Shown: positions 1 to 20,361 of the stretch, piece after piece
How the letters are laid out: every line of letters starts with the position of its first letter
How positions within the stretch are numbered: the first letter of the stretch is position 1
Virus record (IMG/VR): IMGVR_UViG_3300036781_000803
Location: 1-21,788 of that record
Reading direction: 5' to 3' (one strand)
Source of the DNA: a virus
DNA: 21,788 nucleotides
Translations under genes and position numbers: made by a program
The notes under the pieces: model-generated
The model's database searches: none
Seen by the model: the letters and a program-made list of their open reading frames with translations, nothing else
What the model was told of the DNA's origin: nothing

Positions 1-1014
1 TCAGGCTACCCGCCGCAGCTTCGTGGTGGGGGATTTTTGACCAATCTTCCCGATCGCTTCGACCAACGCGTCGGTCTTCAGATGCGCGTAGCGCTGTGTC
101 GATCGCGCGTCCTTGTGACCGAGCACGGCCCCCACGGTGTACAGGTCGACGCCGTTGTTGATCAGCTCCGATGCCGCCGAGTGGCGTAGGTCGTGCAGGT
201 GGTACTGCTGCATGCCGACCGCATTCATCGCTGCGCGGATGTTCTTCTGAACCGTGATGCGTGCCGGCGCCTTGAAGTGCCGCGCGCACACCGCCACGCG
301 CGGGTGGATCGGCACGATGCGCGGATCGCCGTTCTTCGTGGTCGACAGGTGCCATCGATCGTCGCGCGGCACCGCGCGCAGGATCTCGGCCAGGCGCATG
401 CCGCTGTAGAAAGCCATGCGCACCACCATGCGCGCCTGCCGGTTCTTCGTGGCCTTCGCCACCGCCAGCATCTGCGCGCGGCCGGCGTAGAGGTGGCGCT
501 CGTTCTTCACCTGCGGCACCACGACTCGCGCGCCGGGATCGGAATCGCCGAGGCCGTGCCGCTTCCATGCATAGCGACAGGCGGCGGTAAGGTAGCGGAT
601 CCGGATGCGGATGGTGGCCGCCGACAGCTCGCGCGGCTCCTCGCCCTCTCTCTTCGGAATCGACTTCGATTTCAGGGTGATCGCCTTGCACACGTCGGCC
701 AGGCTCGACAGTGGCCGACCCCGATAGAAATGCGTGATCAACGCCAGCTCGCGCGCGACGTTGGTGCCCTGCTTGAGCTGCGGCACTCGTTCATTCAGGT
801 AGAGGGTGACGGCCTCGTCGATGAGGTGATGCTCACCACCGATGCCGTTGGCTTGCGCGTAGAGCCGTGCGCTTTCCTTGCGGTCGAACTCGTCAGCCTG
901 GGCTTTATTCCAAGCCTTCGGAAGGCGTTTTCGAGCGCGGACTCGCCCCCCGCCGATGTAGGTGTCAAAGTCAAAGACGAACGAACCTCGCGCCTTGTCC
1001 CGGTAGATCGACAT
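1..1014 (-). CDS. int: Tyrosine-family phage integrase
   Basis: This 337-residue site-specific recombinase catalyses integration and excision of the phage at its attachment site. The C-terminal catalytic domain shows the full set of active-site residues: R207 in FYSGMRLAEIL, K227 in TTKNGD, H274 and R277 in HDLRH, H300 in LGHKD and the nucleophile Y309 in TQRYAHL. Residues of about 60-160 look like the helical SAM-like core-binding domain. The stop codon lies at the first base of the window, so the nearest attachment site is probably just outside. It is the last gene of the leftward arm and overlaps the excisionase-like gene by 220 bases in another frame. The start at 1014 has a GGAG about 11 bases upstream. 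Length and residues are typical of an intact enzyme. Confidence 0.96.
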   Translation of the reverse strand: MSIYRDKARGSFVFDFDTYIGGGRVRARKRLPKAWNKAQADEFDRKESARLYAQANGIGGEHHLIDEAVTLYLNERVPQLKQGTNVARELALITHFYRGRPLSSLADVCKAITLKSKSIPKREGEEPRELSAATIRIRIRYLTAACRYAWKRHGLGDSDPGARVVVPQVKNERHLYAGRAQMLAVAKATKNRQARMVVRMAFYSGMRLAEILRAVPRDDRWHLSTTKNGDPRIVPIHPRVAVCARHFKAPARITVQKNIRAAMNAVGMQQYHLHDLRHSAASELINNGVDLYTVGAVLGHKDARSTQRYAHLKTDALVEAIGKIGQKSPTTKLRRVA

Positions 1015-2278: not shown

Positions 2279-2543
2279 GGTGGTTCTCCTGCCGCGCGTC
2301 GATCGCCTTGCAGACGTCGACGTGGCTCTCGCCTCGGATCTCGGGCTTGCTGATGCCCTCGATGCTCGACCAGCGGCCGCGCCCGGCTACGGCCACCTTG
2401 TGGGTGTCGTACATGAGGATTTCGCCCTTGTATTCCCAGCGGTTGAGACCGGCCGGCACCAGGAAGTAGGCGAGACGCTCAGGGTCTGGTGCATGCGGCG
2501 CGGGCGCGGCTACTGGCTCGTCGTCGAAGAGGTCGAACGTCAT
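2271..2543 (-). CDS. Hypothetical phage protein (90 aa)
   Basis: This 90-residue protein starts with an acidic segment (MTFDLFDDEP), has a Pro/Ala linker and then a folded-looking part (RLAYFLVPAGLNRWEYKGEI, and WSSIEGISKPE about residues 58-68). It is not recognised. The start makes an ATGA overlap with the cytosine methyltransferase upstream, and the stop overlaps the Cys-rich microprotein by 8 bases, so it belongs to the tightly coupled accessory operon. No membrane segment or signal peptide is visible. Confidence 0.72.
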   Translation of the reverse strand: MTFDLFDDEPVAAPAPHAPDPERLAYFLVPAGLNRWEYKGEILMYDTHKVAVAGRGRWSSIEGISKPEIRGESHVDVCKAIDARQENHHA

Positions 2544-3457
2544 GCAGCCTTCCGCAGCTCAGTGATCACGTCGCGCGCCACTGGCGGGCACACGGCATTG
2601 CCGAGCATGTGCACAGCCTGCCGGTGCCGCGCGGGTAGGCGGTAGGTTTCTGGGAATCCCATCGCGCCGCGGTTCTCTTCTGCGGACAGCATGCGCATCC
2701 GGTCGCCGTCGACGATCGCCCAGCGGTCCAGCGTGGTGATGGTGCCGATCGGGCGCGAGAGGCTGCGGCCGGTCAGCCCGGAGCCGCTGCCATAGTAGGG
2801 CATCAGAAAGCGCCGGCCATGCCGCGCCCGGCCCGCGGCCACGCGAGCGAGCGTCGCGGCAGAGCGGCCCGGTCGATCAATTGCGGCCCACTTGCCTTCG
2901 CCGAAACGGATGAAGGAATCAGCGCCGACGTGTGCGCGCGGCGTCATCTGCAGGTGCAAAGGGTGCTTGCTGCGCGTGCCGATGATGAAGATCCGGCGGC
3001 GGTGCTGCGGCACGCCGTGATCTGCCGCGTCGAGAATGTGCGGCGCGAGCGCGTACCCCAGCGCGGACATGGCGCTGCACCATGCAGGAAACAGCGTCCA
3101 CTTCGCGAGCTCGACCACGTTCTCGACAACGACTGCGGCGGGGCGATGGCATTCGACGGCCGACACTACGGCCCACGCGGTGCTGCGCTGCGCGTCATGG
3201 TGGTCCTTTTCCTTGCCTCGGGCGGGGCTGTGCCCCTGGCAGGCGGGCGAGGCCAACAGCAGGTCATGCGCCGGCACATCTCGCCAGTCCGCCTGTTGCA
3301 CGTCCTGGCAGGCGTGCGCCGTGCCCGGATGGTTGGCCGCATGGACGTCGACCGCTGCCTGCCAGTGGTTGGCGGCCCAAACGACCTTCACGCCGGCCAT
3401 CTCTGCGCCCGTGGTAAAGCCGCCGGCGCCTGCGAAGAGATCGATGCCGGTGATCAT
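2540..3457 (-). CDS. C5 DNA cytosine methyltransferase
   Basis: This 305-residue enzyme transfers a methyl group from S-adenosylmethionine to carbon 5 of cytosine in DNA. Motif I is DLFAGAGGF (6-14), the catalytic loop is SPACQGHS with nucleophile C73 (P-A-C-Q instead of the usual P-P-C-Q), motif VI is ENV (112-114), motif VIII is QHRRRIFIIG (151-160) and motif X is GNAVCPPVA (286-294). The target recognition region between motifs VIII and IX is short, as in monospecific phage enzymes. No cognate restriction nuclease is nearby, so protection against host restriction or an epigenetic role is more likely than a restriction-modification pair. It overlaps its neighbours by 4 bp on both sides. Confidence 0.94.
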   Translation of the reverse strand: MITGIDLFAGAGGFTTGAEMAGVKVVWAANHWQAAVDVHAANHPGTAHACQDVQQADWRDVPAHDLLLASPACQGHSPARGKEKDHHDAQRSTAWAVVSAVECHRPAAVVVENVVELAKWTLFPAWCSAMSALGYALAPHILDAADHGVPQHRRRIFIIGTRSKHPLHLQMTPRAHVGADSFIRFGEGKWAAIDRPGRSAATLARVAAGRARHGRRFLMPYYGSGSGLTGRSLSRPIGTITTLDRWAIVDGDRMRMLSAEENRGAMGFPETYRLPARHRQAVHMLGNAVCPPVARDVITELRKAA

Positions 3458-3723
3458 GCGGCGCTCGATGTGGTCTGCACGGTGCCGGCGCGGAAGATTC
3501 GTGCGATTTCATCGAACGCGGTAGCCATCTCTTCGAGGCGATGTGCCGACGACGGAAGCCAGAACGTCACCGCGCTGCGGTCATCGTCCATCGGCGGGTG
3601 ATGGAGACGCTCGGTGCTGTGCAATATCAGCTGAGCGGCCTGATAGACGCGGCCCGTGTTACTGACCTTTTCGAGTGCGATGACTTCGGAAGTCAACTCC
3701 TGGCTGTAGACGTTGATTCTCAT
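3454..3723 (-). CDS. Hypothetical phage protein (89 aa)
   Basis: This 89-residue soluble protein has a likely helical first half (SQELTSEVIALEKVSNTGRVYQAAQLIL), a segment DDDRSAVTFWLPSS and a second helix (AHRLEEMATAFDEIARIF). It is not recognised beyond being phage-like. Its ATG forms an ATGA overlap with the stop of the DGR reverse transcriptase, so it is co-translated with the retroelement, and its stop overlaps the methyltransferase start in the same way. Nothing in it suggests a direct retroelement role. Confidence 0.75.
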   Translation of the reverse strand: MRINVYSQELTSEVIALEKVSNTGRVYQAAQLILHSTERLHHPPMDDDRSAVTFWLPSSAHRLEEMATAFDEIARIFRAGTVQTTSSAA

Positions 3724-4844
3724 CTCGTGTCCTTGCTATGGAAGATCTTGGTTAGACGGCCATCGACCGCATGCCCGCGCTTGAGCAGCGCGCGCGCCAC
3801 GGCGGCTTGTTCTTGGTGGCTGGAGCCCGCCTGCCGCACCAGGCCGAGGTAGCTGTTGCCGGTGGCAAAGAGCTCCTCGGCCGGCAGGGTCTCGATGCGC
3901 GCGAGCGCAGCCCGCAACGTGCGTGGCCGCGTCATGCGGCGCCAGGGCTTGATCAGGTGGCCAACGAAGTCGACGCCACGCGCCACGGGCTGCAGGATCG
4001 TCTTGCGTGGGTTGAGCCTCAGATGCAGCTCGGCCAGCTTGCGCTCGATCTGCTCGCGCGCGGAGTTGAGCCACTGCGGGTCATGGTGCAGCAGGACGAA
4101 GTCATCGACATAGCGCACATAGTGCGGTGCGCGCAGGCGATGCTTGGCGAACTGGTCCAGATCGTCGAGCAGCACATTGGCGAAGAACTGGGACGACAGA
4201 TTGCCGATCGGCAATCCATGGTCGGGCGGCGCATTGAACAGGCGCTTGTGCGGCGGCACCAGCTCGAGCTCGCGACGGCCGCCGCGCATCTCGACCTCCT
4301 GCCGCGGGTCGTGCATCAGGATGGCCTCGGCGAGCCACGCCCACCACGGCTCTGTAATGCGCCGCTGCAGCTGATCGAGCACCACGTGCTTGTCGATACT
4401 CACGAAGAAGTTGGCCAGGTCGCACTTGAGATAGTGCGCCGGCCGGCTCCAGTTGCGCGTGATGCTGCGCACCTGGTGCTCCAGCCGCCGAGCGGCGTAT
4501 AGGGTGCCGCGCCCTGGAATGCAGGCGCAGCTGTCGGCCGTGAAGGCCGCATGGAAGCGCGGGGCGATGCGGTTGTACAGCAGGTGATGCACGATGCGGT
4601 CGCGGAACTGCGCCGCCCACACCTCGCGCGGCCGCGGCCGGGTGATGACGAAGCAGATGGAGCGGCCAGGCCGATATGCGCCGCTGGCCAGCTCCTCGTG
4701 CAGCTCAAAAAGATTGCTCTCGGCATGGGCCTCGAATGCGAGCGCGCTGGCGCTGCCGCGCTTCGTGCGCCGGCAGTCGAGGTAGGCTTGAACGAGCAGG
4801 GGAAACAGGTCGGAATCTGCGGGCGGCAACGGCGCAACCCTCAT
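3720..4844 (-). CDS. DGR-type reverse transcriptase
   Basis: This 374-residue RNA-directed DNA polymerase should copy the template RNA with errors at adenines. The palm shows CDLANFF (catalytic D142), the DGR-typical GLPIGNLSSQFFAN (210-223), whose SQ block replaces the QG of other reverse transcriptases, and YVRYVDDF with catalytic D247/D248. N-terminal and thumb regions match the DGR layout (LFELHEELASGAY about 45-57; VDFVGHLIKPW about 291-301), and there is no maturase or integrase domain. The ATG at 4844 gives the family's usual length but lies inside the TR and lacks a well-placed ribosome binding site. The frame stays open to an ATG at 5081 that overlaps the avd stop as ATGA (453 residues), so translation through the TR is an alternative. 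It lies downstream of targets, avd and TR, as in phage BPP-1. Confidence 0.95.
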   Translation of the reverse strand: MRVAPLPPADSDLFPLLVQAYLDCRRTKRGSASALAFEAHAESNLFELHEELASGAYRPGRSICFVITRPRPREVWAAQFRDRIVHHLLYNRIAPRFHAAFTADSCACIPGRGTLYAARRLEHQVRSITRNWSRPAHYLKCDLANFFVSIDKHVVLDQLQRRITEPWWAWLAEAILMHDPRQEVEMRGGRRELELVPPHKRLFNAPPDHGLPIGNLSSQFFANVLLDDLDQFAKHRLRAPHYVRYVDDFVLLHHDPQWLNSAREQIERKLAELHLRLNPRKTILQPVARGVDFVGHLIKPWRRMTRPRTLRAALARIETLPAEELFATGNSYLGLVRQAGSSHQEQAAVARALLKRGHAVDGRLTKIFHSKDTR

Positions 4845-4907
4845 AGCTCTTGTGGTTGTTGTTCTGGTTGCCGTTGTTGAAGTTGCAATTCCAGGCGTAC
4901 GAGGCCT
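4816..4907 (-). repeat. DGR template repeat (TR)
   Basis: This 92-base template aligns without gaps to VR1 (5490-5581) and over 87 bases (4819-4905) to VR2 (5989-6075). Read on the minus strand it is rich in AAC/AAT codons, encoding W-N-C-N-F-N-N-G-N-Q-N-N-N-H-K-S in the target frame, the typical arrangement that maximises substitution at codon positions 1 and 2. Every difference to VR1 (10) and VR2 (12) is at a coding-strand adenine. The last 25 bases (4819-4843 on the plus strand) are identical in all three copies and correspond to the initiation-of-mutagenic-homing block. The reverse transcriptase start codon lies within the TR. Confidence 0.96.
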
Positions 4908-5077
4908 TGTCGCGCTATGTAGGCGGTCATCCCGAAGGCCATGGCCGATCAGGGTGGCGGCTGCACCGGACCGGGCCTGCCCGAAGGCAGCGGTCTCCGC
5001 GGCGTGCATGTCGGTGGACTCGTGATCCAGCGGCGCGACCAGATTCACTATGCGCACGGGCATGAGGGCCTTGACCG

Positions 5078-5440
5078 TCATGCTGCAGGCGCCCTGTTCG
5101 CTGTCTTGAGCCATCCGCCGGCCTGCTTACCGATGCTGCCCAACAGCTGCACGGACTCGGCCCACAGCCTGGGCGAGAGGTGCTTGCGGTCGAAGATGAC
5201 CCGCAGCATCACCGTCACGGCGCGCTGCTTGGTGAGCAGCTCCTGAAGGTGTGCTGCGCGCATCTCGCGCTGCGACGAGTTGGCCAGCGCCATGAGCTCG
5301 AGGATGTCGACGCAATGCTGCGTGATCTTCTCGCCCATGATGCGCTTGAGGTTGCGGGGCATTTGCTCCTGCACGCTGACGGCGAGGTCGAGCAGTTGCA
5401 CGCCTGTCCGGTAGATCGGCAGATCCGTATGCAGGGCCAT
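5078..5440 (-). CDS. avd: Avd-like DGR accessory variability determinant
   Basis: This 120-residue, almost entirely helical basic protein fits the Avd four-helix bundle. Helices are visible at about residues 7-26, 30-53 (MPRNLKRIMGEKITQHCVDILELMALAN nearby), 57-84 (REMRAAHLQELLTKQRAVTVMLRVI) and 90-114 (RLWAESVQLLGSIGKQAGGWLK). In Bordetella phage BPP-1, Avd forms a pentameric barrel that binds the reverse transcriptase and template RNA and is needed for cDNA synthesis. Placement between the target genes and the TR/reverse transcriptase is the classic order. The stop overlaps an ATG at 5081 that opens the upstream-extended reverse transcriptase frame. Confidence 0.92.
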   Translation of the reverse strand: MALHTDLPIYRTGVQLLDLAVSVQEQMPRNLKRIMGEKITQHCVDILELMALANSSQREMRAAHLQELLTKQRAVTVMLRVIFDRKHLSPRLWAESVQLLGSIGKQAGGWLKTANRAPAA

Positions 5441-5456
5441 TGGCGAGGCTCATCTC

Positions 5457-5469
5457 AAAAGGATTGAAG
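5457..5469 (-). repeat. 13-bp repeat downstream of VR1
   Basis: AAAAGGATTGAAG on the plus strand occurs here and again at 5953-5965, each shortly after the stop codon of a VR-bearing gene and ahead of the next start codon. It may be part of the homing-site context, a leftover of the duplication that made the two targets, or a leader for the next gene. Its role is unknown. Confidence 0.6.
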
Positions 5470-5480
5470 GACCGAAGGGA

Positions 5481-5936
5481 TCAAAGAACTCTGCGGGCGG
5501 CAACGGCGCAACCCTCATAGCTCTTGTGGTCGTGGCCCTGGTTGCCGTCGTCGAAGTAGCAAAACCAGGCGCACGAGGCCTCATCCGCATGCACCTCGTT
5601 GGACCAGTGCCAGCTCTGTTCCACGTGCGGCCTGCAGTTGGCGAAGATCAATGCCAGCTCCTGGCGGTCCGGCAGATCGCCGCCCAGGCCCTGAGCCCAG
5701 TTCATCGCCGATTGCCAATCGAGGCGGCCTTCGGGCCGCTCGGCCATCAGGACCAGGTGATGCTTGACGCTGCCGTCCGCGTCGAGCACGGGCCCGACAT
5801 AGCGGTCGCCGGCGCGCAGCTCGATGGCGACCTCGGGGATGAAGTAGGTCGTGCTGACCTGCGCCTGCAGCTGTTCGATCATGCTGGCCAACTCGGCCTG
5901 ACGGGCCTGGACGGCTTGGATGGTGACTGGGGTCAT
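5481..5936 (-). CDS. DGR target protein 1 (C-type-lectin-like/DUF1566-like, variable C-terminus)
   Basis: This 151-residue protein starts with a short predicted coiled coil (VQARQAELASMIEQLQAQV, about 8-27) and continues into a C-type-lectin-like, DUF1566-related fold: WQSAMNWAQGLGGDLPDRQ (74-92), LALIFAN (94-100), WHWSNE (109-114). Its end is encoded by VR1. Variable residues by TR comparison are 122, 125, 127, 129, 130, 134, 135 and 136; the scaffold residues (W124, C126, F128, G131, KS, EGCAVAAR) match the TR. There is no signal peptide or tail-fibre domain, so the displayed ligand surface may act inside the cell; the binding partner is unknown. The start at 5936 follows a GAGG. It is paralogous to target 2. 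Confidence 0.93.
   Translation of the reverse strand: MTPVTIQAVQARQAELASMIEQLQAQVSTTYFIPEVAIELRAGDRYVGPVLDADGSVKHHLVLMAERPEGRLDWQSAMNWAQGLGGDLPDRQELALIFANCRPHVEQSWHWSNEVHADEASCAWFCYFDDGNQGHDHKSYEGCAVAARRVL
5490..5581 (-). repeat. DGR variable repeat 1 (VR1)
   Basis: This stretch aligns to the TR with a constant offset of 674 bases. It differs at 10 positions (TR 4857, 4860, 4862, 4863, 4875, 4878, 4884, 4889, 4890 and 4898), each a T on the plus strand and therefore an A on the coding strand. Changes on the coding strand are A to G, C or T. It ends just before the stop codon of target 1, with the invariant GC-rich initiation block at its 3' end. Confidence 0.96.
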
Positions 5937-5952
5937 GGGTGGCCTCGGGGAA

Positions 5953-5965
5953 AAAAGGATTGAAG
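5953..5965 (-). repeat. 13-bp repeat downstream of VR2
   Basis: This is the second copy of AAAAGGATTGAAG, lying between the stop of target 2 and the ribosome binding site of target 1. The same spacing logic as at 5457-5469 supports duplication of a target-plus-flank unit. Confidence 0.6.
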
Positions 5966-5967
5966 AA

Positions 5968-6342
5968 TCAAGCGGTGAGCGGAATCAAGCGGGCGGCAAC
6001 GGCGCAACCCTCAGAGCTCTTGTGGCAGTCGTACTGGTAGCCGTCGTAGAAGCTGCAACCCCAGGCGGACGAGGCGTCGTACTCCTCGCTGGTCCAGTGC
6101 CAGCGCTCGACCAGGTGCTTCTTCACGTTGGCGAAGAGCAGCGCGGCGATCGGGCGGGTGGGCAACTGCGCGCCGAGCTTTTCGGCCCAGGCAACGGCGG
6201 CCTTCCATTTGATGTCCTGCGCTCTGTCTGGCAGCAGAACTACAGCGACGTGCATGCCGTCAGGCTGGGTGATCACGCCGGCGAAGATGCCGCCTTCGAG
6301 TTCGGCGCCGATGGCGGGGAGGGAAGTGAGAGTCGTGCTCAT
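5968..6342 (-). CDS. DGR target protein 2 (C-type-lectin-like/DUF1566-like, variable C-terminus)
   Basis: This 124-residue paralogue of target 1 lacks the N-terminal coiled coil. Shared scaffold: WKAAVAWAEKLGAQLPTR (46-63), LLFAN (68-72), VERWHWTSEE (78-87) and the terminal EGCAVAAR. Its C-terminus is encoded by VR2; residues changed relative to the TR are 92, 95, 97, 99, 100, 102, 104, 105, 106 and 110, with Tyr, Asp, Ser, Gly and Cys replacing the template Asn/Tyr. The ATG at 6342 (MSTTLTSL) is preferred to the in-frame ATG at 6423 because the extra 27 residues overlap the upstream gene and look noncoding; an AAAGG lies upstream of it. No signal peptide is present. Ligand unknown. Confidence 0.92.
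   Translation of the reverse strand: MSTTLTSLPAIGAELEGGIFAGVITQPDGMHVAVVLLPDRAQDIKWKAAVAWAEKLGAQLPTRPIAALLFANVKKHLVERWHWTSEEYDASSAWGCSFYDGYQYDCHKSSEGCAVAARLIPLTA
5989..6075 (-). repeat. DGR variable repeat 2 (VR2)
   Basis: This stretch aligns to TR 4819-4905 with a constant offset of 1170 bases and differs at 12 positions (TR 4844, 4856, 4857, 4860, 4863, 4869, 4875, 4878, 4883, 4889, 4890, 4898). All are coding-strand adenines in the TR. VR2 shares no variable codon outcome with VR1 except one Asp, which indicates independent mutagenic events. Confidence 0.96.
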
Positions 6343-6409
6343 GAGGGCCTTTCGGGTGTTGAGCTGGTGGGAAAGTTGAAGATTGAGAAGCGGAGTCGAC
6401 GCCGGCGCG

Positions 6410-7087
6410 CTATCGATCGGCAATGCGGTCGAGGCGCTCCATTTCGGCGAGGATCAGAGCGCCGGCCTTTTCGAGATTTCGGCGGGCATCGGCGGGCTTC
6501 CAAGAGGCGCCATCCCATGGCCAGAAAAGCTCGAAGACAGATTGCGGCCAGTGGCTCGCGCCAAGCGCGTAGCAGGCCGCCGCGTCGCCGAGCTGTCCAG
6601 CCGAGTGAGCGTCATCGTGCTCGGTGGTGTATGCCTCGGCAGACACCTGCCGCACGCGCTCGGCCAGGACGCTACGGGCAGCGCGTGAGAGGTCGAGGCC
6701 TGCGAAGCTGCCCTTGCGATGTGCGTCCGCAAACCTAGCGCGGATTGCATCGGCGACCGCCTGCGGGTCGCAGACACGCCCGCCAGGCACGGTATCGGAC
6801 AGTAGCTGCTCCACGTCGACCGAGAGACTGGCGGCGCCGGCGTCTTCTTCGTCGCTTAGAGGACTGGCGCGCAGCACCGCGGTGACGGCTGCATGCATGC
6901 GACCGTGGATGAAATTCTTCTCTGCTTCCACCTTGGTCACACCGAACCACGCAGCGACGCCGGCGTCCAGAGCGCTTTCGCTGAAGGTCTGGGGGATAGC
7001 GAAAAAGCGGCGATCCTGTGTGTCCAGTTTCAGCGGTTGCGCTTCGCCTGACAGGAAGATGTAGTTGGGGGTCTTGGGGTTGCTCAT
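6410..7087 (-). CDS. Phage protein with an N-terminal D5-helicase-like fragment
   Basis: This 225-residue protein appears composite. Residues 3-31 (NPKTPNYIFLSGEAQPLKL, then DTQDRRFFAIP) resemble the post-Walker-B segment of D5/P4-type helicases and match residues 289-326 of the helicase in this window (NPK, NIVFLSNELQPLALDNSDRRYLVV). The second half has two segments common in phage hypothetical proteins: ARSVLAERVRQVSAEAYTTEHDD (about 136-160) and WPWDGASWKP, ARRNLEKAGALILAEMERLDR (about 190-221). No nucleotide-binding loop is present, so it is not itself a helicase. The ATG at 7087 overlaps the ParB-like stop as ATGA; the longer opening to 7159 lies inside the neighbour. Function unknown. 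Confidence 0.82.
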   Translation of the reverse strand: MSNPKTPNYIFLSGEAQPLKLDTQDRRFFAIPQTFSESALDAGVAAWFGVTKVEAEKNFIHGRMHAAVTAVLRASPLSDEEDAGAASLSVDVEQLLSDTVPGGRVCDPQAVADAIRARFADAHRKGSFAGLDLSRAARSVLAERVRQVSAEAYTTEHDDAHSAGQLGDAAACYALGASHWPQSVFELFWPWDGASWKPADARRNLEKAGALILAEMERLDRIADR

Positions 7088-9354
7088 GGCTCGATGGACT
7101 CCATTTCGGTGTAGTCGGCGGAAAGGGCGAAAGAGAGGGTGCTGGGCTGTACCATCCACGCGCGGTCGCCGAGCGCATGCATGACCTCGGCCTCGACGCC
7201 GCGTGTGTTGAACACGTCGACGCCCTTGCGAAGATCGGTCTTTAGGCGCACGCGCTGGCCGGCCTGGAAGGCATTGGGATTGCCGGCCGCCTGCAACTGC
7301 GCGGCGATCGCGGCCGACGCCTCGGCGGCGGTGGCCTTCGGCTTGCGCGCCGGCTTGGTTGGCGCGGCCTGCGCCACCACGGCCGCCGCGGCGCCGTCGA
7401 CCTTCTTGTCGCTCGCAGCCTTCTTCATCGACGCCTTGACGCCCGCGCGGATCTTGTTGGTGTCGACGCCGTATTCGCTGGCCACGGTATCGATGCGATC
7501 AGCGGCACCGTCTTTGCTCGCGTCGTGCTGCACCAGCAGCAGCAGCAAAACCGTGTCTACGTCCTCCTCGGGGCAACTGACGATGTGCGACTCAATGGCC
7601 TCGCGAGCTGCGATGCGGCCCAATTCGAGCAACTTGCATGTGTGGTTGCGGTCTTCCGTCGTCAGGCCATCTACCAACATCAGTGCCAACTGGCGCAGTA
7701 CAGGCGCATTGAAGCCTCCCTCGACATCGTTCTTCAGCGCGGCGAAGATCTTCTCGACCGCCTCCCGGCGCCACGTTTTCTCGAACTTCTCGGCCAGGTC
7801 GCGCTGCGCTGCAGCTTCGTTCGTCTCGACTGTCGGCGCCTCGCCGATGCCCTGTTCCTTCAACAGCTTGCCGACGACTACGGTGGGCAAAACCTCGACC
7901 ATCTCGTGCGTCTTCGGATCCTCGATCAGCGTCGGCGTAGGCATGTCCTTGCCCAGCACCTTGCGCAGCGTCTTCATCTGCCCACCGAGCGCCTGGTGGT
8001 CGTCGACCTTGGTGTAGCCGCGCAGCGTGTTGCTGTCCGGCATGATCTCCTTCGCCTCGCGGCCGGTGATGACCGTCTGGCCGCGGGCCTCGGCCTGCGT
8101 GCGGATGCGCAGGTAGTGCGCGTCCTTCTTCTCGGCGAAGCACGACGGGTCGGTGCAGGTGTCAGCGTGCGCGACATCGTCGAACAGCTCAGGGTTGGCG
8201 CCCGAGCGCTTCGGGCACACGCGGCAGCTCCCGGCCGCCGGCACCAGCTCGGCGTCCGTGATCTTGAAGGCGGCAGTACCGAGTCGCAGCATGTAGCGGT
8301 CGTCGATGTGCGCCTTTGCCTTGCGGAAACTCATCGGCTCGCCGTGGAAATCGGGCGCCGTGATTTCCTTCAGCACCTGCAGCTGCAGATTGGGCTGGCG
8401 CATGGCGACCAACTCGGCGGTCGACCGCGTCAGCTTGCCCTCGTAGAACGCCTCTCGGGACTCGGGCTCCAGGTCGAGCAACTTGAGGGTCTTGTAGACG
8501 TAGGCGCGGCCCTTGCCGATCTTTTCGGCGATGTCGTCGGCCGTCAGCCCGACTGTGTCGCGTAGCCGGCCGTAGCCCTCGGCTTCCTCCATGGGGTGCA
8601 GGTCGCGACGCTTGAGGTTCTCGACGAGTTGAATCTCGAGAACCTGGGCGTCCGTCAGGTTGCGGATCATGGCCGGAATCGCGCGGAGGCCGGCAATGCC
8701 GGCAGCACGCCAGCGCTGTTCGCCGGCGACAACCTCATGGGTTGGCCGTGGTTGCCCCGGCAGCAGGTCTTCGAGCGTCTCTTGCAGCCTCGATCCCGGC
8801 AGTGGGCGAACCAGGATCGCCTGTAGCACGCCGTTGGCCCGAATGCTCGCGGCGAGGTCCTTGATGAACGCTTCGTCGAAATGCGTGCGGGGGTTCGTCT
8901 TGCTTCGCACGATTGCCGCGTGCGGCAAATCGGCGAACCCGGGCGTCGTCGTGGTCGAGGCGACTGTGGGGGTAACGGACTGCGCCGCCAGGCGCTCGGT
9001 GTCTTCTCGCTTGCCGCCGAAGGCGGGTGGATTGACTTTGCTCTGCGCGCGCAAATCGGCAGGCGGCATAAAACCGTCGTTGGTCGCCACTTCGTTTCTC
9101 GGTTCCCCCCCCTCCCCAAGAGATGGCGAAGCCCGCGAAGGTGTCGGGGCGGTTGCGAGGATCGACGCCTTGCTGCGCCGCTTGCGGTCGTACTCGCGCT
9201 CGTGATCCTTGTTCTTCGCGCCCCAGGCGGCGCGCAGCTTCTTTTTGCAGTCGCGACAAAGGCGCTGCAGGCCATCCGCGCTGGTGCTGTCGACAGCGAA
9301 CGCTTCGGCGGGCAGCAGCACGCCGTGGCAGGTCTTTTGAGTAGGTGTCGCCAT
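7084..9354 (-). CDS. ParB/Spo0J-family protein (orphan, phage-encoded)
   Basis: This 756-residue protein has an HNH-like Cys knuckle at the start (C9, C33, C36), then a ParB N-domain from about residue 145 (NPRTHFDEAFIKDLAASI; GEQRWRAAGIAGL; VENLKRRDLHPMEEAEGYGRL) with the GERR-like and ENLxRxDLxPxEEA motifs used for CTP binding, then a KorB-like HTH (LTADDIAEKIGKGRAYVYKTLKLLDL). A Cys cluster, CRVCPKRSG with DTCTDPSCF (about 375-408), is seen in phage ParB-like proteins. The long C-terminus includes an Ala/Lys-rich linker and a final small domain. No ParA or parS is visible, so gene regulation or DNA organisation is likelier than plasmid-style partition. It is far longer than chromosomal ParB (about 300 residues). 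Confidence 0.9.
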   Translation of the reverse strand: MATPTQKTCHGVLLPAEAFAVDSTSADGLQRLCRDCKKKLRAAWGAKNKDHEREYDRKRRSKASILATAPTPSRASPSLGEGGEPRNEVATNDGFMPPADLRAQSKVNPPAFGGKREDTERLAAQSVTPTVASTTTTPGFADLPHAAIVRSKTNPRTHFDEAFIKDLAASIRANGVLQAILVRPLPGSRLQETLEDLLPGQPRPTHEVVAGEQRWRAAGIAGLRAIPAMIRNLTDAQVLEIQLVENLKRRDLHPMEEAEGYGRLRDTVGLTADDIAEKIGKGRAYVYKTLKLLDLEPESREAFYEGKLTRSTAELVAMRQPNLQLQVLKEITAPDFHGEPMSFRKAKAHIDDRYMLRLGTAAFKITDAELVPAAGSCRVCPKRSGANPELFDDVAHADTCTDPSCFAEKKDAHYLRIRTQAEARGQTVITGREAKEIMPDSNTLRGYTKVDDHQALGGQMKTLRKVLGKDMPTPTLIEDPKTHEMVEVLPTVVVGKLLKEQGIGEAPTVETNEAAAQRDLAEKFEKTWRREAVEKIFAALKNDVEGGFNAPVLRQLALMLVDGLTTEDRNHTCKLLELGRIAAREAIESHIVSCPEEDVDTVLLLLLVQHDASKDGAADRIDTVASEYGVDTNKIRAGVKASMKKAASDKKVDGAAAAVVAQAAPTKPARKPKATAAEASAAIAAQLQAAGNPNAFQAGQRVRLKTDLRKGVDVFNTRGVEAEVMHALGDRAWMVQPSTLSFALSADYTEMESIEP

Positions 9355-9369
9355 GGCGTGCTGCCTCGC

Positions 9370-10014: not shown

Positions 10015-10054
10015 GGGTAGAATTCCTGTGTGAGTGATCGATAGAAAGCACGAA

Positions 10055-10079
10055 GCCCGGCGGCCCTACACCGCCGGGC
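10055..10079 (-). terminator. GC-rich hairpin between the two exported-protein genes
   Basis: A perfect 9-bp stem (GCCCGGCGG with CCGCCGGGC) encloses a 7-base loop, beginning 7 bases after the stop of the upstream exported gene. On the minus strand it is followed by TTCGTGCTTTC rather than a clean U-run, so termination may be partial; the plus strand has TTT after the stem. It may reduce transcription into the downstream gene or stabilise the upstream mRNA. Confidence 0.6.
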
Positions 10080-10085
10080 TTTCGT

Positions 10086-10805: not shown

Positions 10806-10844
10806 GGTGCTTTCCGAGGGAGTGGTTGCGAAAATGGGCGCACT

Positions 10845-10869
10845 TGAAGGCGGCGCCCGTCGGCCTTCA
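10845..10869 (-). terminator. Weak hairpin after the winged-helix-like gene
   Basis: TGAAGGC and GCCTTCA form a 7-bp stem around an 11-base GC-rich loop that overlaps the stop codon of the gene at 10867-11550. On the minus strand ATTTTCG follows only after about 10 bases, so intrinsic termination would be weak. Confidence 0.3.
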
Positions 10870-13497: not shown

Positions 13498-13513
13498 CCG
13501 GTTGATGGGGCCG

Positions 13514-13555: not shown

Positions 13556-13606
13556 CTATTCGTGCACAATTGCCCATGCGCCGCTTGTTGCGGCGAGGAG
13601 ATCGGA

Positions 13607-14113: not shown

Positions 14114-14494
14114 CTACTGGCCTGTCGTGCCTTCGGCCTTGGGCGGTTCAGCAAGCGCATTAAGCAAGCGGAGCGCCGTCGAGCGCTCCGCCGCGGGGAG
14201 CTGATTGAACAAGCTCAGCATCTGACGGCTGGTGTCGTCGGCCAGGCCTTCGAGTTCGACCGGGGTATCCAGCCATCCCACTTCGAGACCAAGCTTCTCT
14301 TCTATCTCTCGTGCCGTTGGGTCACCGAGCTCATAAGGCTTACCGCGGTCACTGCGGATGCTTCCGTTTTGAATTTGCGAGATCCGGGCGTTTGTCGCTT
14401 CCCATCCGAGCGCGAGATTCAACGCGGCGATTGTCCCGTAACGGCGAATTAGCTCCTTGAGCCGTTCGCGACGGGTTTGGAAGACGGTCTTCAT
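14114..14494 (-). CDS. cI: CI-like phage repressor, HTH only
   Basis: This 126-residue protein has a basic start (FQTRRERLKELIRRYG), a Cro/CI-type helix-turn-helix (TIAALNLALGWEATNARISQ, IQNGSI, about residues 21-46) and a YELGDPTAREIEEKLGLEVGWLDTP segment typical of phage repressor N-domains. It should hold the lysogenic state by binding the five 13-bp operators. The LexA/CI-type S24 peptidase domain is absent: the C-terminus is only a short helix (QMLSLFNQLPAAERSTALRLLNAL). Classical RecA-stimulated self-cleavage is therefore not expected. It is transcribed leftward, divergent from cro. Confidence 0.87.
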   Translation of the reverse strand: MKTVFQTRRERLKELIRRYGTIAALNLALGWEATNARISQIQNGSIRSDRGKPYELGDPTAREIEEKLGLEVGWLDTPVELEGLADDTSRQMLSLFNQLPAAERSTALRLLNALAEPPKAEGTTGQ

Positions 14495-14579: not shown

Positions 14580-14843
14580 ATGAACCTCCAACAGTGGCTG
14601 TCCGTCGAGCGTGGCCGCGCTAAGGCGCTTGCTGACCATTTGCACATTCCGGCTTCGATGGTCTCGAAGATGGGCAGCGGAGAAAAGCAAATCCCGGTGG
14701 ATCACTGCCCGTTCATCGAGGTGTTTACCGAAGGCGCTGTGACCTGTGAGGAACAACGACCCGACAAGGTCGAGTACTTCACGATCCTGCGGTCGCGGGC
14801 GAAGGGGATCGAGGAGCCCGTCACCCAGCCGGGAGCGCTCTGA
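14580..14843 (+). CDS. cro: Cro-like regulator (YdaS-type HTH)
   Basis: This 87-residue protein opens with a compact helix-turn-helix (GRAKALADHLHIPASMVSKM, about residues 12-31), followed by the GEKQIPVDHCPFIEVFTEGAVTCEEQRPDK segment characteristic of YdaS/Cro-type regulators that pair with CI. It should bind the operators at 14508-14568 and switch off repressor synthesis to commit to lysis. There is no ribosome binding site before the ATG, and the predicted PR start is within a base or two of it, suggesting a leaderless mRNA. It is divergent from the repressor across an 85-bp gap. Confidence 0.88.
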   Translation: MNLQQWLSVERGRAKALADHLHIPASMVSKMGSGEKQIPVDHCPFIEVFTEGAVTCEEQRPDKVEYFTILRSRAKGIEEPVTQPGAL

Positions 14844-15665: not shown

Positions 15666-16672
15666 TGGACAACCTCAACGCGGTCCTCCATCAGATGGAG
15701 GCCTTCGGCATCGAGCTGCGCGACGCGGACAAGGACCGCATCGCGTCGTTGCCTGGCAGCGCCCATGAGGGCAAGCGCAAGACGTGTGGGAAGAAAGGCA
15801 AGGACTGGTTCAAGTTCTACGTCTTCCGTCCCGACATGGGCGGCGTGTTCCTCACCGGATCGTTCGGCACCTACCGGCATGGCGGCTCATGGGCGAAGGT
15901 CGAGCAGGATTGGGCGCCGCTGTCGGCCGCCGAGCGTGAGCGCCAGGCGCGCGAGCGAGAGGCAGCAGCTGCTCGGGCGGCAGCAGCACGCGAGGAATCC
16001 AAGCGCATCGCGGCGATGCGCGCCGGCGAGCTGTGGCACTACGCCGCGCGCGAGGGGCATTCGCCGTACCTGGTGCGCAAGGGCCTGCAGGGTGAAGCCT
16101 GCCGCTATCTCCCCGACGGCACGCTCGTGATCCTGATGCTTCGCTATGACCTGCCGCGCGAAGAAGCCATCCAGGCCGCGCAGCGCATCATGCCGAACGG
16201 CGAGAAGAAGTATTCCTACGGGTTCTCGAAGCCCGGTTGCGCGCTTCGACTCGGCGGCGTGGATGAGTCGACGCAGTTGGTAGCGGTCGTCGAGGGCTAT
16301 GCGACCGGCCTTACAGTGCGCACCGCGCTCGATCGCCAGATCCCCGTCTACGTCGCATTCGACGCCGGCAACCTGTACCACGTCGTGCCGATCCTGCGCG
16401 AGCTGCACCCCGGCGTGCGGATGCTCATCTGCGCGGACGACGATTGGCGCACGCGCGACCCGCAAACGGGCGAGTTGAACAACCCCGGCCGGACCGCGGC
16501 GAAGGCGATCGCCAAACAGGTGCCGGGCGTGGACATCGTGTACCCGGTCTTCGATCGCACGCGGCAGGACGCCGACACGGACTTTGACGATCTGCGCATC
16601 CGCCAAGGCATCGAGGTCGCCCAGCGGCAGCTGCAGGGCGCCGTGCGGATGATGGAGCGCGTGCATGGCTGA
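15665..16672 (+). CDS. Toprim-domain DNA primase
   Basis: This 335-residue protein synthesises primers for phage replication. The N-terminus (about 30-75) has C41 and a KDWFKFYVFRPD segment, perhaps a degenerate zinc-binding region, then a long Arg/Ala/Glu helix (about 87-122). A Toprim fold spans about 200-300 with the metal-binding pattern: VVEGYATGLTVRTAL (E210) and MLICADDDW (D258-D260), followed by NPGRTAAKAIA. This is the P4-alpha/Toprim arrangement with primase and helicase as separate, adjacent genes. The ATG at 15665 shares a base with the previous stop; its end overlaps the helicase start by 8 bases. Confidence 0.9.
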   Translation: MDNLNAVLHQMEAFGIELRDADKDRIASLPGSAHEGKRKTCGKKGKDWFKFYVFRPDMGGVFLTGSFGTYRHGGSWAKVEQDWAPLSAAERERQAREREAAAARAAAAREESKRIAAMRAGELWHYAAREGHSPYLVRKGLQGEACRYLPDGTLVILMLRYDLPREEAIQAAQRIMPNGEKKYSYGFSKPGCALRLGGVDESTQLVAVVEGYATGLTVRTALDRQIPVYVAFDAGNLYHVVPILRELHPGVRMLICADDDWRTRDPQTGELNNPGRTAAKAIAKQVPGVDIVYPVFDRTRQDADTDFDDLRIRQGIEVAQRQLQGAVRMMERVHG

Positions 16673-18221
16673 CGACGGCAAGAGCACCAGCCCGCCCGCC
16701 GCCGCGAACGTCGTGCAGGCTGAATTTGGCGGAAAGGCGCGCAAGGGGCGAAAGAAAAAGGGCGACGCTGCTGCTGCACCCCCATCCTCAGGATCGAGCG
16801 CAAATGCGCCGAACTCGGGGATAGGGGAGGGCACGGCCGCGAAGCCATCGCTGCCCGTGAAGCCCGACAAGAAAAAGCCCGAGCGCGTGATCGACTGGGG
16901 CAAGTTCAACTACCTGATCGAGCGGTTCGCCTTGATCTATGGCACCGACACCGTGTGGGACGGCGGCGCGCGGCTGATCATGAAGATCGGCAACATGGCG
17001 CATGCGCACGGCAGCGACATGGTGCGCATGTGGAAGACCAACGAAAAGCGGCGCACGGTGATGCTGACCGATGTTGTCTTCGACCCGACGGAGACGTGCG
17101 GCGACCATTGCGTGAACCTGTTCGGCGGCATGGCGATGGAGCCCATGGATGGCGACGTGGCGCCGATGCTGGATCTCGTTCGCTACCTCGTCAGCCGAAC
17201 GTCCGAGGACGAGGTCGAGCGGGACGAGATCATGCATTGGCTGCTGTGCTGGATCGCCTACCCGCTGCAGAACTTGGGCACCAAGCTGCGCACGGCAGTG
17301 ATCATGCATGGCGACGAGGGCGCGGGTAAGAACTTCCTGTTCGACCTGGTCGTCGACATCTACGGGCAGTACGGCGTGCTGGTCGGCCAGGACGAGCTCG
17401 AGGACAAGTTCAACGACTGGCGCTCGGGCAAGATGATGGTGATCGGCGATGAGGTGTCGAGCCGGGCCGAGCTTGTGCATAACAAGAATCGGTTGAAGGC
17501 GCTCATCACCAGCCCTTCGGTGCAGATCAATCCTAAGAACCTGCCTCGACGCACCGAGTCGAACAACATCAACATCGTCTTTCTGTCGAATGAGCTGCAA
17601 CCGCTCGCGCTCGACAACTCCGATCGGCGCTATCTCGTGGTCTACACGCCGCGTGCCAAGGAGTTCGACTACTACGTCAAGCTGAAGAAGTGGCGCGCGG
17701 ACCATGGCGCCGAACGCTTCTACAACTTCCTGCTGCACTACGAATGCACGGGCTTCGATCCCTTCGCGCCCGCGCCCTTCACCCAGGCGAAGGCGGACCT
17801 GATCGACATCAACCGCAAGAGCCCTGAGCGCTTCTGGGTGGAGTGGCAGCAGGGGCTGCTCGATCTGCCCTACCAGTCGTGCTCGGTCGACCAGGCGTAT
17901 CAGGCCTATATCAAGTACGCGCAGCGCATCGGCGACCGCTTCCCCCTGCAGAGCAACGTCTTCACGCGGATGGTGGGGCGATTCAGCGAAGGGCAGGGCT
18001 ACCCCGTCCGGGTCAAGACGATGCAGATCACGCAGGTGACCGGCGGGCGTAAGGCGTACCGAATGCTGCTGGTCTGTGATCCGCCCCCTGGCATCAAGGA
18101 AGGCGAGTGGGCGACGGAGAGCGTGCGGGCCTTCGGTGAGCAGCTGCGCAAGTACATCGGCGGCGGGTGGAATCCCCGCTCCCCCAGTGAGGCCGAACAG
18201 GCTGAGAGGGGCAACGAATGA
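16665..18221 (+). CDS. Replicative helicase, D5/DUF5906 superfamily 3-like
   Basis: This 518-residue ATPase should unwind DNA at the phage origin. After a Lys/Ala/Pro-rich disordered N-terminus (1-75), it has Walker A HGDEGAGKN (215-223), Walker B MMVIGDEV (257-264) and a downstream conserved block (NPKNLPRR, NIVFLSNELQPLALDNSDRR, 289-322) typical of DUF5906 primase-helicase C-terminal parts. The last residue of Walker A is Asn where Thr/Ser is usual, as in several members. It overlaps the Toprim primase by 8 bases and together they form the replication pair. A repeat-rich block immediately follows, consistent with an origin next to its helicase. Confidence 0.92.
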   Translation: MADDGKSTSPPAAANVVQAEFGGKARKGRKKKGDAAAAPPSSGSSANAPNSGIGEGTAAKPSLPVKPDKKKPERVIDWGKFNYLIERFALIYGTDTVWDGGARLIMKIGNMAHAHGSDMVRMWKTNEKRRTVMLTDVVFDPTETCGDHCVNLFGGMAMEPMDGDVAPMLDLVRYLVSRTSEDEVERDEIMHWLLCWIAYPLQNLGTKLRTAVIMHGDEGAGKNFLFDLVVDIYGQYGVLVGQDELEDKFNDWRSGKMMVIGDEVSSRAELVHNKNRLKALITSPSVQINPKNLPRRTESNNINIVFLSNELQPLALDNSDRRYLVVYTPRAKEFDYYVKLKKWRADHGAERFYNFLLHYECTGFDPFAPAPFTQAKADLIDINRKSPERFWVEWQQGLLDLPYQSCSVDQAYQAYIKYAQRIGDRFPLQSNVFTRMVGRFSEGQGYPVRVKTMQITQVTGGRKAYRMLLVCDPPPGIKEGEWATESVRAFGEQLRKYIGGGWNPRSPSEAEQAERGNE

Positions 18222-18911: not shown

Positions 18912-19495
18912 ACGCTAGGGCACCGCTCATCACGCAAGCCGAGTACGCGCGGCGGCGTGGCGTCGCCAAGTCGGCGGTCGCCAAGGCTGTCGCCGAAGGT
19001 CGCATCACGCTGATCGACGGCAAGGTGAACGAGCAGGTCGCCAATATCCAGTGGGAACAGAACACCCGCGCCCGGGCCGACAGCGCTCGCACCAGCGTGC
19101 CAGGCAGCGCGGGCGAAGGGCAGGGTGGCGCTGGCGGCTCTGACGGCGCTGTCGCGGCCGAGGCCGGCACAAGTCCAGCACAGCCGGCCGCCTCGCCGGG
19201 CTACAACGATTTCCGCACGCGCCGCGAAGCTGCTGACGCCGAACGCTCCGAGATCGAGCTGGCCAAGATGCGCGGGCGGCTCGTTGACCGCGACACGGTC
19301 GAGCGCGCGATTTTCGATGCGTTCCGGGCGCTCCGGGACGCGGCATTCAGTGCGCCACAGCGCGCCGCGCCGCGTGTGATCGGATTGGCCGATTCGCGCG
19401 ACATCGAGATTGCCTTCGCCGCCGAGCTGCGCAAGGCGTTCGAGGGTTGGGAGGCGCGAATGCTTCAGCGCCTGCCGGCGAGGGACGACGCATGA
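18908..19495 (+). CDS. terS: Terminase small subunit (Nu1-like)
   Basis: This 195-residue DNA-recognition subunit of the packaging motor has an N-terminal helix-turn-helix (TQAEYARRRGVAKSAVAKAV, then AEGRITLIDGKV, about residues 9-40) like lambda Nu1, a Gly/Ala-rich linker (about 60-98) and a helical C-terminal part (RREAADAERSEIELAKMRGR, LVDRDTVERAIFDAFRALRD) that should contact the large subunit. The GTG start at 18908 overlaps the previous stop as GTGA; GGA lies just upstream. It starts the packaging module and is followed by an inserted methyltransferase gene. Confidence 0.88.
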   Translation: MNARAPLITQAEYARRRGVAKSAVAKAVAEGRITLIDGKVNEQVANIQWEQNTRARADSARTSVPGSAGEGQGGAGGSDGAVAAEAGTSPAQPAASPGYNDFRTRREAADAERSEIELAKMRGRLVDRDTVERAIFDAFRALRDAAFSAPQRAAPRVIGLADSRDIEIAFAAELRKAFEGWEARMLQRLPARDDA

Positions 19496-20361
19496 CTGCG
19501 ACGCGTCCTGCGTTGAGATACCACGGCGGCAAGTGGAAGCTGGCGCCCTGGCTTCAACTGTTCTTTCCGCCGCATCGCGTATACGTGGAAGCGTTCGGCG
19601 GTGGCGCTTCGGTATTGCTGCGCAAGCCGCGCGCCTATGGCGAGATCTACAACGACCTCGACGGCGAAGTCGTCAACGTGTTCCGGATGCTTCGCGACCG
19701 TGGCCAGGAACTCGCCGAGCTGCTCAAGCTCACGCCCTTCGCGCGAGCGGAGTTCGATCTTTCATACCTGCGTCCCGAGGATGATTTAGAGCAAGCTCGT
19801 CGCACGATTGCAAGGTCGTTCATGGGCTTCGGCTCGGCGGCGGCCACTGGTGAGCGAAGTGGCTTCCGGGCGAACTCCAACCGCAGCGGCACCACGCCGG
19901 CGCACGACTGGGCCAACTTGGCCGGCGCCATACCAACGTTGGTCGACCGCCTGCAAGGCGTGGTGATCGAGAACCGCGACGCCATGCGGATTGCTGTCCA
20001 TCACGATTCGCCCGACACGCTGCACTACTTCGATCCGCCCTACGTCCACAGCACGCGCTCGGGGAAGATGCGCGGAACTGCGACCGAGGGACGCAGCTCG
20101 GGAAAGGCCTACCGCTACGAGATGGACGATGCTGCGCACCGTGCCTTCGCTCTGCTCGCTCACGAGCTGAAAGGAATGGTCGTGATCTCGGGATACTCCT
20201 GTTCGCTCTACGAAGAGCTGTTCCAAGCTTGGGAACGCTTCGATCGGCCGGCCTTCGCCGACGGTGCTCGCTCGCGCACGGAAGTCGTGTGGCTCAATCC
20301 GGCCTGCAGCTCGGCGCTCGAGCGCGACCGCGGCGGGTTATTCGCGGAGCACGGCCGGTGA
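19492..20361 (+). CDS. D12-class DNA N6-adenine methyltransferase
   Basis: This 289-residue enzyme methylates adenine in DNA using S-adenosylmethionine. It has the Dam/D12 pattern: LRYHGGKWKLAPWL (8-21), motif I YVEAFGGGASVLL (31-43), IYNDLDGEVVNVFR (52-65) and the catalytic DPPY (181-184). It lies between the small and large terminase genes, with GTGA/ATGA overlaps at both ends, so methylation may protect or mark DNA during packaging, or shield against host restriction. The ATG at 19492 is chosen because it overlaps the terS stop; the longer opening to 19447 is inside terS. Confidence 0.93.
   Translation: MTATRPALRYHGGKWKLAPWLQLFFPPHRVYVEAFGGGASVLLRKPRAYGEIYNDLDGEVVNVFRMLRDRGQELAELLKLTPFARAEFDLSYLRPEDDLEQARRTIARSFMGFGSAAATGERSGFRANSNRSGTTPAHDWANLAGAIPTLVDRLQGVVIENRDAMRIAVHHDSPDTLHYFDPPYVHSTRSGKMRGTATEGRSSGKAYRYEMDDAAHRAFALLAHELKGMVVISGYSCSLYEELFQAWERFDRPAFADGARSRTEVVWLNPACSSALERDRGGLFAEHGR

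Follow-up and report, generated by a model that had tools for sequence, protein, structure and literature searches.

Small, probably non-tail targets of a phage diversity-generating retroelement encoded between repressor and integrase

Diversity-generating retroelements (DGRs) of phages are mostly read as host-range devices that diversify tails (available sections of Roux et al., PMC8144416), and the locus described here raises the question of what such an element diversifies when its targets are short proteins encoded in the arm that runs from the repressor to the integrase. The element is found in IMG/VR record IMGVR_UViG_3300036781_000803, a linear fragment of 21,788 nt (analysed as a whole and hereafter called the window), in which a complete DGR lies midway along the left arm, with the repressor to one side and the integrase to the other; its components, all on the minus strand, follow the order T2, T1 (the two target genes), Avd, template repeat (TR) and reverse transcriptase (RT). 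We consider it moderately probable that it represents a distinct phage DGR lineage, whose T1 and T2 would be early-made, intracellular, non-virion binders of a fast-changing protein partner. The DGR itself is of a known kind; what appears to be new, on sequence grounds, is an early-arm, non-tail lineage that is independent of tail type.

Anatomy of the retroelement and fold of its targets

By its anatomy, the element in the window is a diversity-generating retroelement. Three 92-nt direct repeats lie on the minus strand, namely the TR (4816..4907) and two variable repeats (VRs), VR1 at the 3' end of T1 (5490..5581) and VR2 at the 3' end of T2 (5986..6077). Read on the coding strand, VR1 differs from the TR at 10 sites, all of them TR adenines, and VR2 at 16, of which 14 are TR adenines (the other two, G, being repeat positions 2 and 91), i.e. 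the variation is restricted, or nearly so, to template adenines. As a scan of both window strands with adenine as a wildcard scored the TR/VR copies at 0.97-1.0 and the next-best site at 0.55, the three repeats are not a product of chance. Beside them lies an RT of the DGR type (3720..4844, minus strand; PF00078 E=2.5e-16, phrog_1423 E=9e-112), the translation of which contains IGNLSSQ and YVDD, which we take to be DGR/RT motifs. The Avd-type accessory protein (5078..5440, minus strand, 120 aa) matches phrog_3206 ('Avd protein of DGR', E=3.3e-22), its scores against NCBIfam NF033474 (45.8 of 80 bits) and Pfam bAvd (38.7 of 40 bits) both lying under the cut-off. The RT start was taken to be the ATG at 4844, which would place it inside the 3' end of the TR; across the lineage, 71 of 110 loci have an in-frame start codon within the TR, 63 have another no more than 45 nt past it, and in 102 the RT frame is open across the whole TR.

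A defence-associated RT (of the DRT/UG or retron type), with the paralogues as its effectors, would be another way to read the same genes, and PADLOC does match the RT with RT_UG4 and other DRT models (E down to 6e-24, in output without a cut-off, the top match being a general RT model). It names no family for T1 or T2. The NCBIfam Drt models, however, fall far below their cut-off (the best, Drt3a, at 42.5 of 200 bits), while TR, VRs, Avd and adenine-specific changes are diagnostic of a DGR and adenine-specific VR differences separate two sequences of one phage (QDWS/zrk29-1, below). We hold a defence RT to be barely credible.

Both target genes are on the minus strand, where the first-pass annotation had placed them: T1 at 5481..5936 (151 aa) and T2 at 5968..6342 (124 aa, opening with an ATG inside a 151-codon, TTG-started frame at 5968-6423). 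The scaffold WHW...EGCAVAAR, which that annotation had seen in both, ends T1 as well as T2, and a crude hydropathy rule flags neither N-terminus, in agreement with its claim that signal peptides are lacking. The C-type-lectin fold that it proposed to look for is predicted confidently for T1, T2 being poorly modelled within its VR. The AlphaFold2 model of T1 (58-sequence alignment, pLDDT 94) consists of a helix (residues 6-25) followed by a C-type-lectin domain, and its nearest solved structures are the C-terminal domain of Legionella Lcl (8q4e; Foldseek E 4.5e-5; VIA Z 13.0, rmsd 3.6, 113 residues), which is also the sole match below E 0.001 in a sequence search of solved structures, and Bdellovibrio Bd2740 (8oks; Z 14.1, rmsd 2.2, 101 residues). 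By sequence, T1 scores 23.5 bits against Pfam Lcl_C (DUF1566, PF07603; gathering cut-off 34.9), a weak match to this family recurring in all 60 T1-type proteins (nine of which also weakly match FGE-sulfatase); T2 has no match to Lcl_C/DUF1566. T2, C-type-lectin-like and without the N-terminal helix, matches phrog_4245 (unknown function, E=2.8e-6), as do T1 and 56 of 61 T2-type proteins. A VR is thus found at the C-terminus of a C-type-lectin-fold protein in T1, and in part in T2. Named phage matches to the T1 fold in BFVD include small DUF1566 proteins. The conserved short helix of T1 probably serves oligomerisation or the binding of a fixed partner.

The residues of T1 that have an adenine-bearing TR codon span 119-149, and the eight AAT/AAC codons among them (125, 127, 129, 130, 132, 134, 135 and 136) map to a beta-hairpin, formed by strands 122-127 and 133-137 with their connecting turn, as drawn from predicted secondary structure, not from coordinates; A123, W124 and G131 never vary, and F128 and Q133 hardly do. 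In this model the variable codons of T1 centre on a single hairpin. Upstream of the coding regions, a 13-base block (AAAAGGATTGAAG, plus strand) at 5457-5469 and 5953-5965 is common to the leaders of Avd and T1, and is perhaps the trace of a gene-unit duplication or a cis element.

Recurrence of the module and its place in phage genomes

Related loci were gathered from scans with the targets and Avd (the best 80 of 303 and the best 80 of 130) and from phage records. They fall into at least 134 non-redundant groups, at least 117 of which possess an Avd gene (the window and the phages Magia and QDWS included), a minimum that is biased towards near relatives. The known hosts are mostly beta-proteobacteria, and one locus (L014) comes from an environmental lysogen, Undibacterium macrobrachii. 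Throughout the lineage the genes follow the order target, target, Avd, TR and RT. The number of VR-bearing targets per Avd locus is none in 6, one in 7, two in 74, three in 26 and four in 4 (at least one in 111 of 117, at least two in 104), after the removal of four self-matches in which a TR had been taken as its own VR (L050, L057, L088, L108); the lineage-wide VR scan penalises non-adenine mismatches, and its count of 2884 vs 48 is not neutral, unlike the counts for the window repeats and for the QDWS/zrk29-1 pair (below). Agreement of strand between targets and cassette is built into the collection and is given no weight. In 99 of 104 loci, the nearest pair of target ORFs either overlaps or is separated by no more than 150 nt. 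On a quick tree, T1-type and T2-type proteins cluster by position, strongly though imperfectly (17 position changes vs 80 in shuffled trees for T1, 25 vs 78 for T2 and 19 vs 28 for third targets), and the nearest relatives of T1 include proteins of Magia and of a Burkholderia prophage. The grouping is not clean, and it does not demonstrate a single old duplication that gave rise to T1 and T2.

The targets remain small across the lineage, with median lengths of 153 aa (adjoining Avd), 131 aa and 132 aa after a heuristic adjustment of starts (expected offset, ATG preferred). Before adjustment, ORFs longer than 250 aa make up 5 of 111 first, 9 of 104 second and 2 of 30 third targets (the four fourth targets standing outside this count); with an internal start, 15 of these 16 no longer exceed 220 aa, L092 being the exception. 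Overall, 2 of 245 VR-bearing targets exceed 220 aa when adjusted, L092 and L079 (226 aa), and among the loci examined the longer, tail-like homologues that would have spoken against the first-pass annotation did not come to light. L092 (1841-3067) encodes a T2-type and a T1-type lectin domain fused in one 408-codon frame; this fusion, together with the near-constant tandem, hints that T1 and T2 act together.

The lineage is active, as can be judged from sequence comparison of near-identical relatives (pairs from different records at 97% identity or more, loci of one contig or genome left out), in which recent rewriting is concentrated in the VRs. Shewanella phage QDWS (OK094664, L011; host given as Shewanella baltica) and 'Hujiaoplasma phage zrk29-1' (OP650936, L176) differ at 31 positions in 47,902 bp, 27 of them in two VRs and 26 of these at TR adenines (14/14 in the T2-position VR, 12/13 in that of the third target); the T1 VR shows no differences, and four differences lie elsewhere. 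In three other pairs with an unchanged TR, the VR adenine sites that differ number 13 of 25 (L055/L056), 24 of 52 (L101/L103) and 38 of 94 (L062/L064), vs 38 of 10,558, 47 of 6,926 and 195 of 11,096 sites outside (for L055/L056, outside VR and TR). The two records QDWS and zrk29-1 are one phage (99.94%), the latter with a Tenericutes bacterium given as host, and at least one of the host labels is doubtful.

Loci that keep target genes without Avd or RT nearby speak for another reading, in which the DGR is decaying or no longer active and its targets have taken on a fixed role. Five such loci (L113, L117, L122, L159, L160) have neither within ~9-10 kb downstream, and a reverse-transcriptase profile found nothing in the whole records of the 13 tested, these five included; in EBPR siphovirus 1 the target gene gp4 (L010 1937-2350) likewise stands without Avd or RT nearby, an RT having been sought there with the window RT in 49 kb and not found. 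In addition, the VR adenine sites are unchanged in six of the ten near-identical, not wholly identical, pairs (L049/L051, L073/L074, L063/L064, L088/L089, L088/L090 and L025/L126, the last with gap differences only and 16 sites covered); five further pairs are identical across their aligned part (L039/L041, L076/L077, L080/L081, L088/L091, L161/L162). Nevertheless, the window has an unbroken RT frame and an intact Avd, TR and pair of VRs, recent change in relatives is confined to VRs, and we regard decay as quite improbable. Genes that persist without Avd and RT would seem to indicate that the targets are useful even without diversification.

The position of the cassette was assessed in relatives, complete or nearly so, the window being a fragment without tail genes of its own. 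We chose 50 records among the contigs and searched them for markers, the distances covering the 44 that have at least one of the following three: an integrase (37 records, 34 above cut-off), baseplate J (19) and a GpA terminase (20, 19 above cut-off). The median distance of the cassette is 5.7 kb to the nearest integrase, 16.1 kb to the terminase and 33.6 kb to baseplate J, the records with a distance of no more than 10 kb numbering 33 of 37, 0 of 19 and 1 of 19, respectively. In 13 of the 14 records that have both an integrase and baseplate J, the integrase is the nearer. The remoteness from the structural module that the first-pass annotation had proposed is therefore borne out in relatives. 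Upstream of the cassette (93 of 117 loci have at least 6 kb there), and named from one representative each, are found a Cro/YdaS-type family on the opposite strand (45 loci), a CI/S24-type family (37 loci, 38 of 41 members on the cassette strand), a VapE-type family (25 loci, 25 of 26 members on the opposite strand) and RecT (12 loci, named by Magia annotation, Pfam giving no match). In the complete genome of Magia, the cassette has recombination genes on one side and excisionase/integrase on the other, a third target being located close to the repressor; in that of QDWS it is part of an arm that ends at the integrase, and the third target lies upstream of recT. Wildcard scans of both whole records recovered three VRs each, all in small genes of the arm (elsewhere scores stay at 0.56 or less), and the further VRs in tail genes that had been suggested as a check are thus absent from Magia and QDWS, as they are from the window, which is without tail genes. 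A BLAST of the window TR against five IMG/VR records gave 12 sites, all at TR/VR positions of cassettes (BLAST misses strongly mutated VRs).

The phages that carry the module have no common tail type. In the tail analysis (TAIL INDEPENDENCE), baseplate J was found in 19 of the 50 records, a lambda-J-type tail protein in 8 others (7 above cut-off) and a T7-type head-tail connector above cut-off in one further record (a second match falling under it), i.e. the target module co-occurs with contractile, long flexible and, in one record, short tail markers (myovirus-, siphovirus- and podovirus-type). A protein that docks on the tail is not expected to travel in this manner, and the mixture of markers therefore speaks against a tail role.

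In the window itself, the matched genes of the left 14.5 kb are all on the minus strand and lead from the repressor (14114..14494; phrog_12107 'transcriptional repressor' E=5.4e-16, without a Pfam match) to a tyrosine integrase at the end of the arm (1..1014; PF00589, phrog_1). A C5-cytosine DNA methyltransferase (2540..3457, minus strand; PF00145 E=2.1e-49) lies downstream of the cassette. The ParB-like protein reported as the upstream neighbour (7084..9354, minus strand; PF02195, PF17762) does belong to the same arm, a 225-aa protein of unknown function on the cassette strand (6410..7087, family scans) intervening between it and the targets. Two further arm proteins (9370-10014 and 10086-10805, minus strand) have signal-peptide-like N-termini and no family match, and a strong terminator-like hairpin (12 pairs, 10081-10053) separates their genes. 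The rightward arm on the plus strand opens with a divergent Cro/YdaS-type regulator (14580..14843; PF15943 E=2e-11, phrog_35) and includes, by family scans, a DUF5906 gene (16665..18221) and a D12-class adenine DNA methyltransferase (19447..20361) directly 5' of the terminase large subunit (20229..21788; PF05876, PF20454; truncated by the record end, start not fixed), which from ~20.2 kb is the sole packaging or structural match among the window genes scanned.

Expression, cellular site and partner of the target proteins

Under the model that we favour, the RT would make copies of the TR in which adenines are randomly changed and, together with Avd, rewrite the 3' ends of the tandem paralogues T2 and T1 (in some relatives also a third target a few kb upstream), the products being small C-type-lectin domains with variable residues presumably centred on one beta-hairpin. 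The arm would be transcribed as an early leftward operon (by analogy with lambda), T1 and T2 would be made early in infection or on induction, and the pair would bind inside the cell, with a contact surface that is kept variable as the partner varies; this partner could be a component of host defence or a protein of a rival phage, counter-defence or phage competition being our preferred settings. Time of expression, intracellular site and bound partner are what we infer. An intracellular, non-virion binder is the most economical reading because nearly all targets are too short for a virion-attachment domain and few have export-like signals; as the cassette resides in the repressor-to-integrase arm and not in the late operon, its products are most likely made early or on induction. 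That the targets are probably not tail proteins is well supported, indirectly, by location and architecture, and the first-pass view of small, non-tail proteins, here with a C-type-lectin fold, agrees with the lineage at large, across which the repressor-to-integrase layout recurs. More boldly, and tentatively, one may envisage an antibody-like system in widespread temperate phages, in which paired intracellular binders rewritten by the DGR would track the proteins of host defence or of competitors and have no role in adsorption.

An unlikely alternative is that T1 and T2 are virion or host-attachment proteins, bound non-covalently to the tail fibre or virion surface, that set the host range. 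To our knowledge, phage DGR targets of known function are receptor binders. Moreover, tail proteins predominate among the targets of viral DGR clades 1, 4 and 6 (sections of PMC8144416 available), and the announcement of Magia suggests that its DGR may alter host range (PMC7883833). Three points argue against it. The cassette sits in the repressor-integrase arm, and its strand is not that of the late genes (in Magia, in QDWS and, for the terminase only, in the window); 243 of the 245 targets are too short to include a further domain for a tail or for attachment; and the same module is present beside different tail markers. Phage tail proteins need no signal peptide, so the absence of one says nothing against a virion role; for this reason, and because a helix joined to a lectin domain could trimerise and the phrog_4245 profile is much longer than the targets, the virion role keeps a small but real share of our expectation.

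A somewhat unlikely, though by no means negligible, alternative is that these are accessory genes expressed in the lysogen from a promoter of their own, whose proteins would guard it against other phages or act as sensors for the prophage. This proposal shares the intracellular, non-virion part of the reading that we prefer and departs from it in the time of expression, hence our confidences in the two overlap. Terminator-like hairpins (by a rule of our own) occur at 0.31 per kb in the 250 nt before T2 (8 of 103 loci) vs 0.12 per kb far upstream, a terminator is annotated just upstream of the T2 gene in the Magia record, and DGR targets predicted to be cytoplasmic have been proposed as antigen sensors in a multicellular bacterium (PMC10907252, in the part available). 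Against this, the same rule finds no terminator before T2 in 95 of 103 loci nor in the window, no sigma-70-like promoter is seen just before T2 in the window, and the one minus-strand promoter-like site in 4700-15300 (13542-13514) lies near the repressor, upstream of the whole arm (with 2 such sites in all vs 0.9 expected by chance). The early leftward operon of lambda-type phages runs from repressor to integrase and is normally silenced by the repressor in the lysogen; given that the arm resembles it in layout, expression early in infection is at least as likely as expression in the lysogen.

Several observations weigh against early, intracellular binders of this kind. The promoter and terminator scans yielded no clear transcription unit. 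The model of T2 (pLDDT 86.6) is good except in the VR itself, where it is poor (pLDDT 47 and 54 in two blocks of ten), and a comparison of it with the PDB returned nothing at E<=0.001. BFVD matches to the T1 fold also include long fibre-like phage proteins, hence the role cannot be read from the fold alone; T1 and T2 align to no more than the final ~80 of the 583 columns of the phrog_4245 profile, and longer members may exist. The T1 helix and lectin domain could trimerise in the manner of an adhesin. Crude rules detect a hydrophobic N-terminal stretch in 8 of 245 targets (perhaps partly from wrong starts) and a TM-like stretch in 6. As regards position, 4 of 37 integrases lie more than 10 kb off on linear maps (G046, G004, G005 and, at 17 kb, G010), those of G046 (the one exception among the 14 records above), G004 and G005 being at the opposite record end and presumably near if the genomes are circular; in the eight siphovirus-type records the lambda-J-type tail gene is 6.4-27.4 kb from the cassette, and in 22 of the 50 records all three tail markers are missing (a marker counting as present above cut-off or, in the case of baseplate J and the tail protein, at E<=0.001). 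The six pairs with unchanged VR adenines belong here as well.

If the preferred reading is true, a lineage of more than 100 loci, with targets encoded outside the tail genes and no single tail type, would show targeted hypermutation to be employed by phages within the cell as well, and its recurrence in more than 100 pieces of viral and bacterial DNA suggests the tuning of an intracellular contact, not of host choice. The question is directly testable, as complete phages exist (Magia, QDWS) and T1 and T2 are small proteins suited to pull-down.

Comparison with known retroelements

The DGR of Bordetella phage BPP-1 (mtd/avd/brt) has one target, a 381-aa protein of the tail-fibre tip. The present lineage departs from it in having two to three targets of ~120-160 aa, encoded in the repressor-integrase arm, and target position, target length and tail markers in relatives do not fit the BPP-1 arrangement, in which a tail or receptor-binding target is encoded among the tail genes. 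T1 resembles in fold the C-terminal domain (8q4e) of Lcl, an adhesin of Legionella, the sequence score lying below the Pfam cut-off. What is shared with BPP-1 (see also PMC8144416, in the sections available) comprises RT, Avd, TR, a 3'-terminal VR, adenine-specific change and the C-type-lectin fold. According to the same sections, no domain is recognised beyond the VR in 71% of the sequences that make up the main target clusters, and the lineage described here may be among them. The tentaclins, the proteins of a two-target phage DGR (PMC10743442, available part), are proposed receptor binders of at least 313 aa and differ in this from T1 and T2.

The closest described system is that of Burkholderia phage Magia, itself a member of the lineage, with an Avd 42% identical to that of the window and the order T2-T1-Avd-TR-RT beside the integrase. 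Magia was isolated and propagated on plates, and its announcement names genes 47 and 57 as targets (PMC7883833); gene 46 (T1; L009 32316-32780), unnamed as such there, is a third, with all 11 VR mismatches at TR adenines. The RT of Burkholderia phage KS5 is held by its authors not to be a DGR (PMC3091744, as far as the available text goes). Among the titles and abstract openings of the open-access DGR literature in PMC, phage DGR targets in an early operon are not described, nor do the available portions of these papers link a phage lineage of such breadth with targets placed away from the tail genes, independence of tail type and divergence limited to VRs between near-identical phages.

Multiple small targets have precedents outside this setting. 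In the accessible parts of the DiGReF survey (PMC3521204), DGRs with several VRs are recorded in Burkholderia, Ralstonia, Collimonas and others, with 2-4 paralogous VR targets, and are perhaps partly of the same lineage; its test for prophage association was unsuccessful, in contrast to the phage-arm location found here. A survey of 948 DGRs reports several small-repeat VRs in different DUF1566 ORFs, e.g. six VRs in a Stenotrophomonas; several small VR targets are common to both, those systems not being placed in phage arms in the portion available (PMC6642488). A DGR-based immunity has been proposed by Belalov et al. (PMC10053308, available text). Lastly, in the available part of the study of Thiohalocapsa PB-PSB1 (PMC10907252), DGR targets are described as putative antigen sensors, some of them predicted to be cytoplasmic; these are cellular proteins that go together with MoxR or STAND/NACHT NTPases, whereas the targets described here are phage-borne, single-domain proteins.

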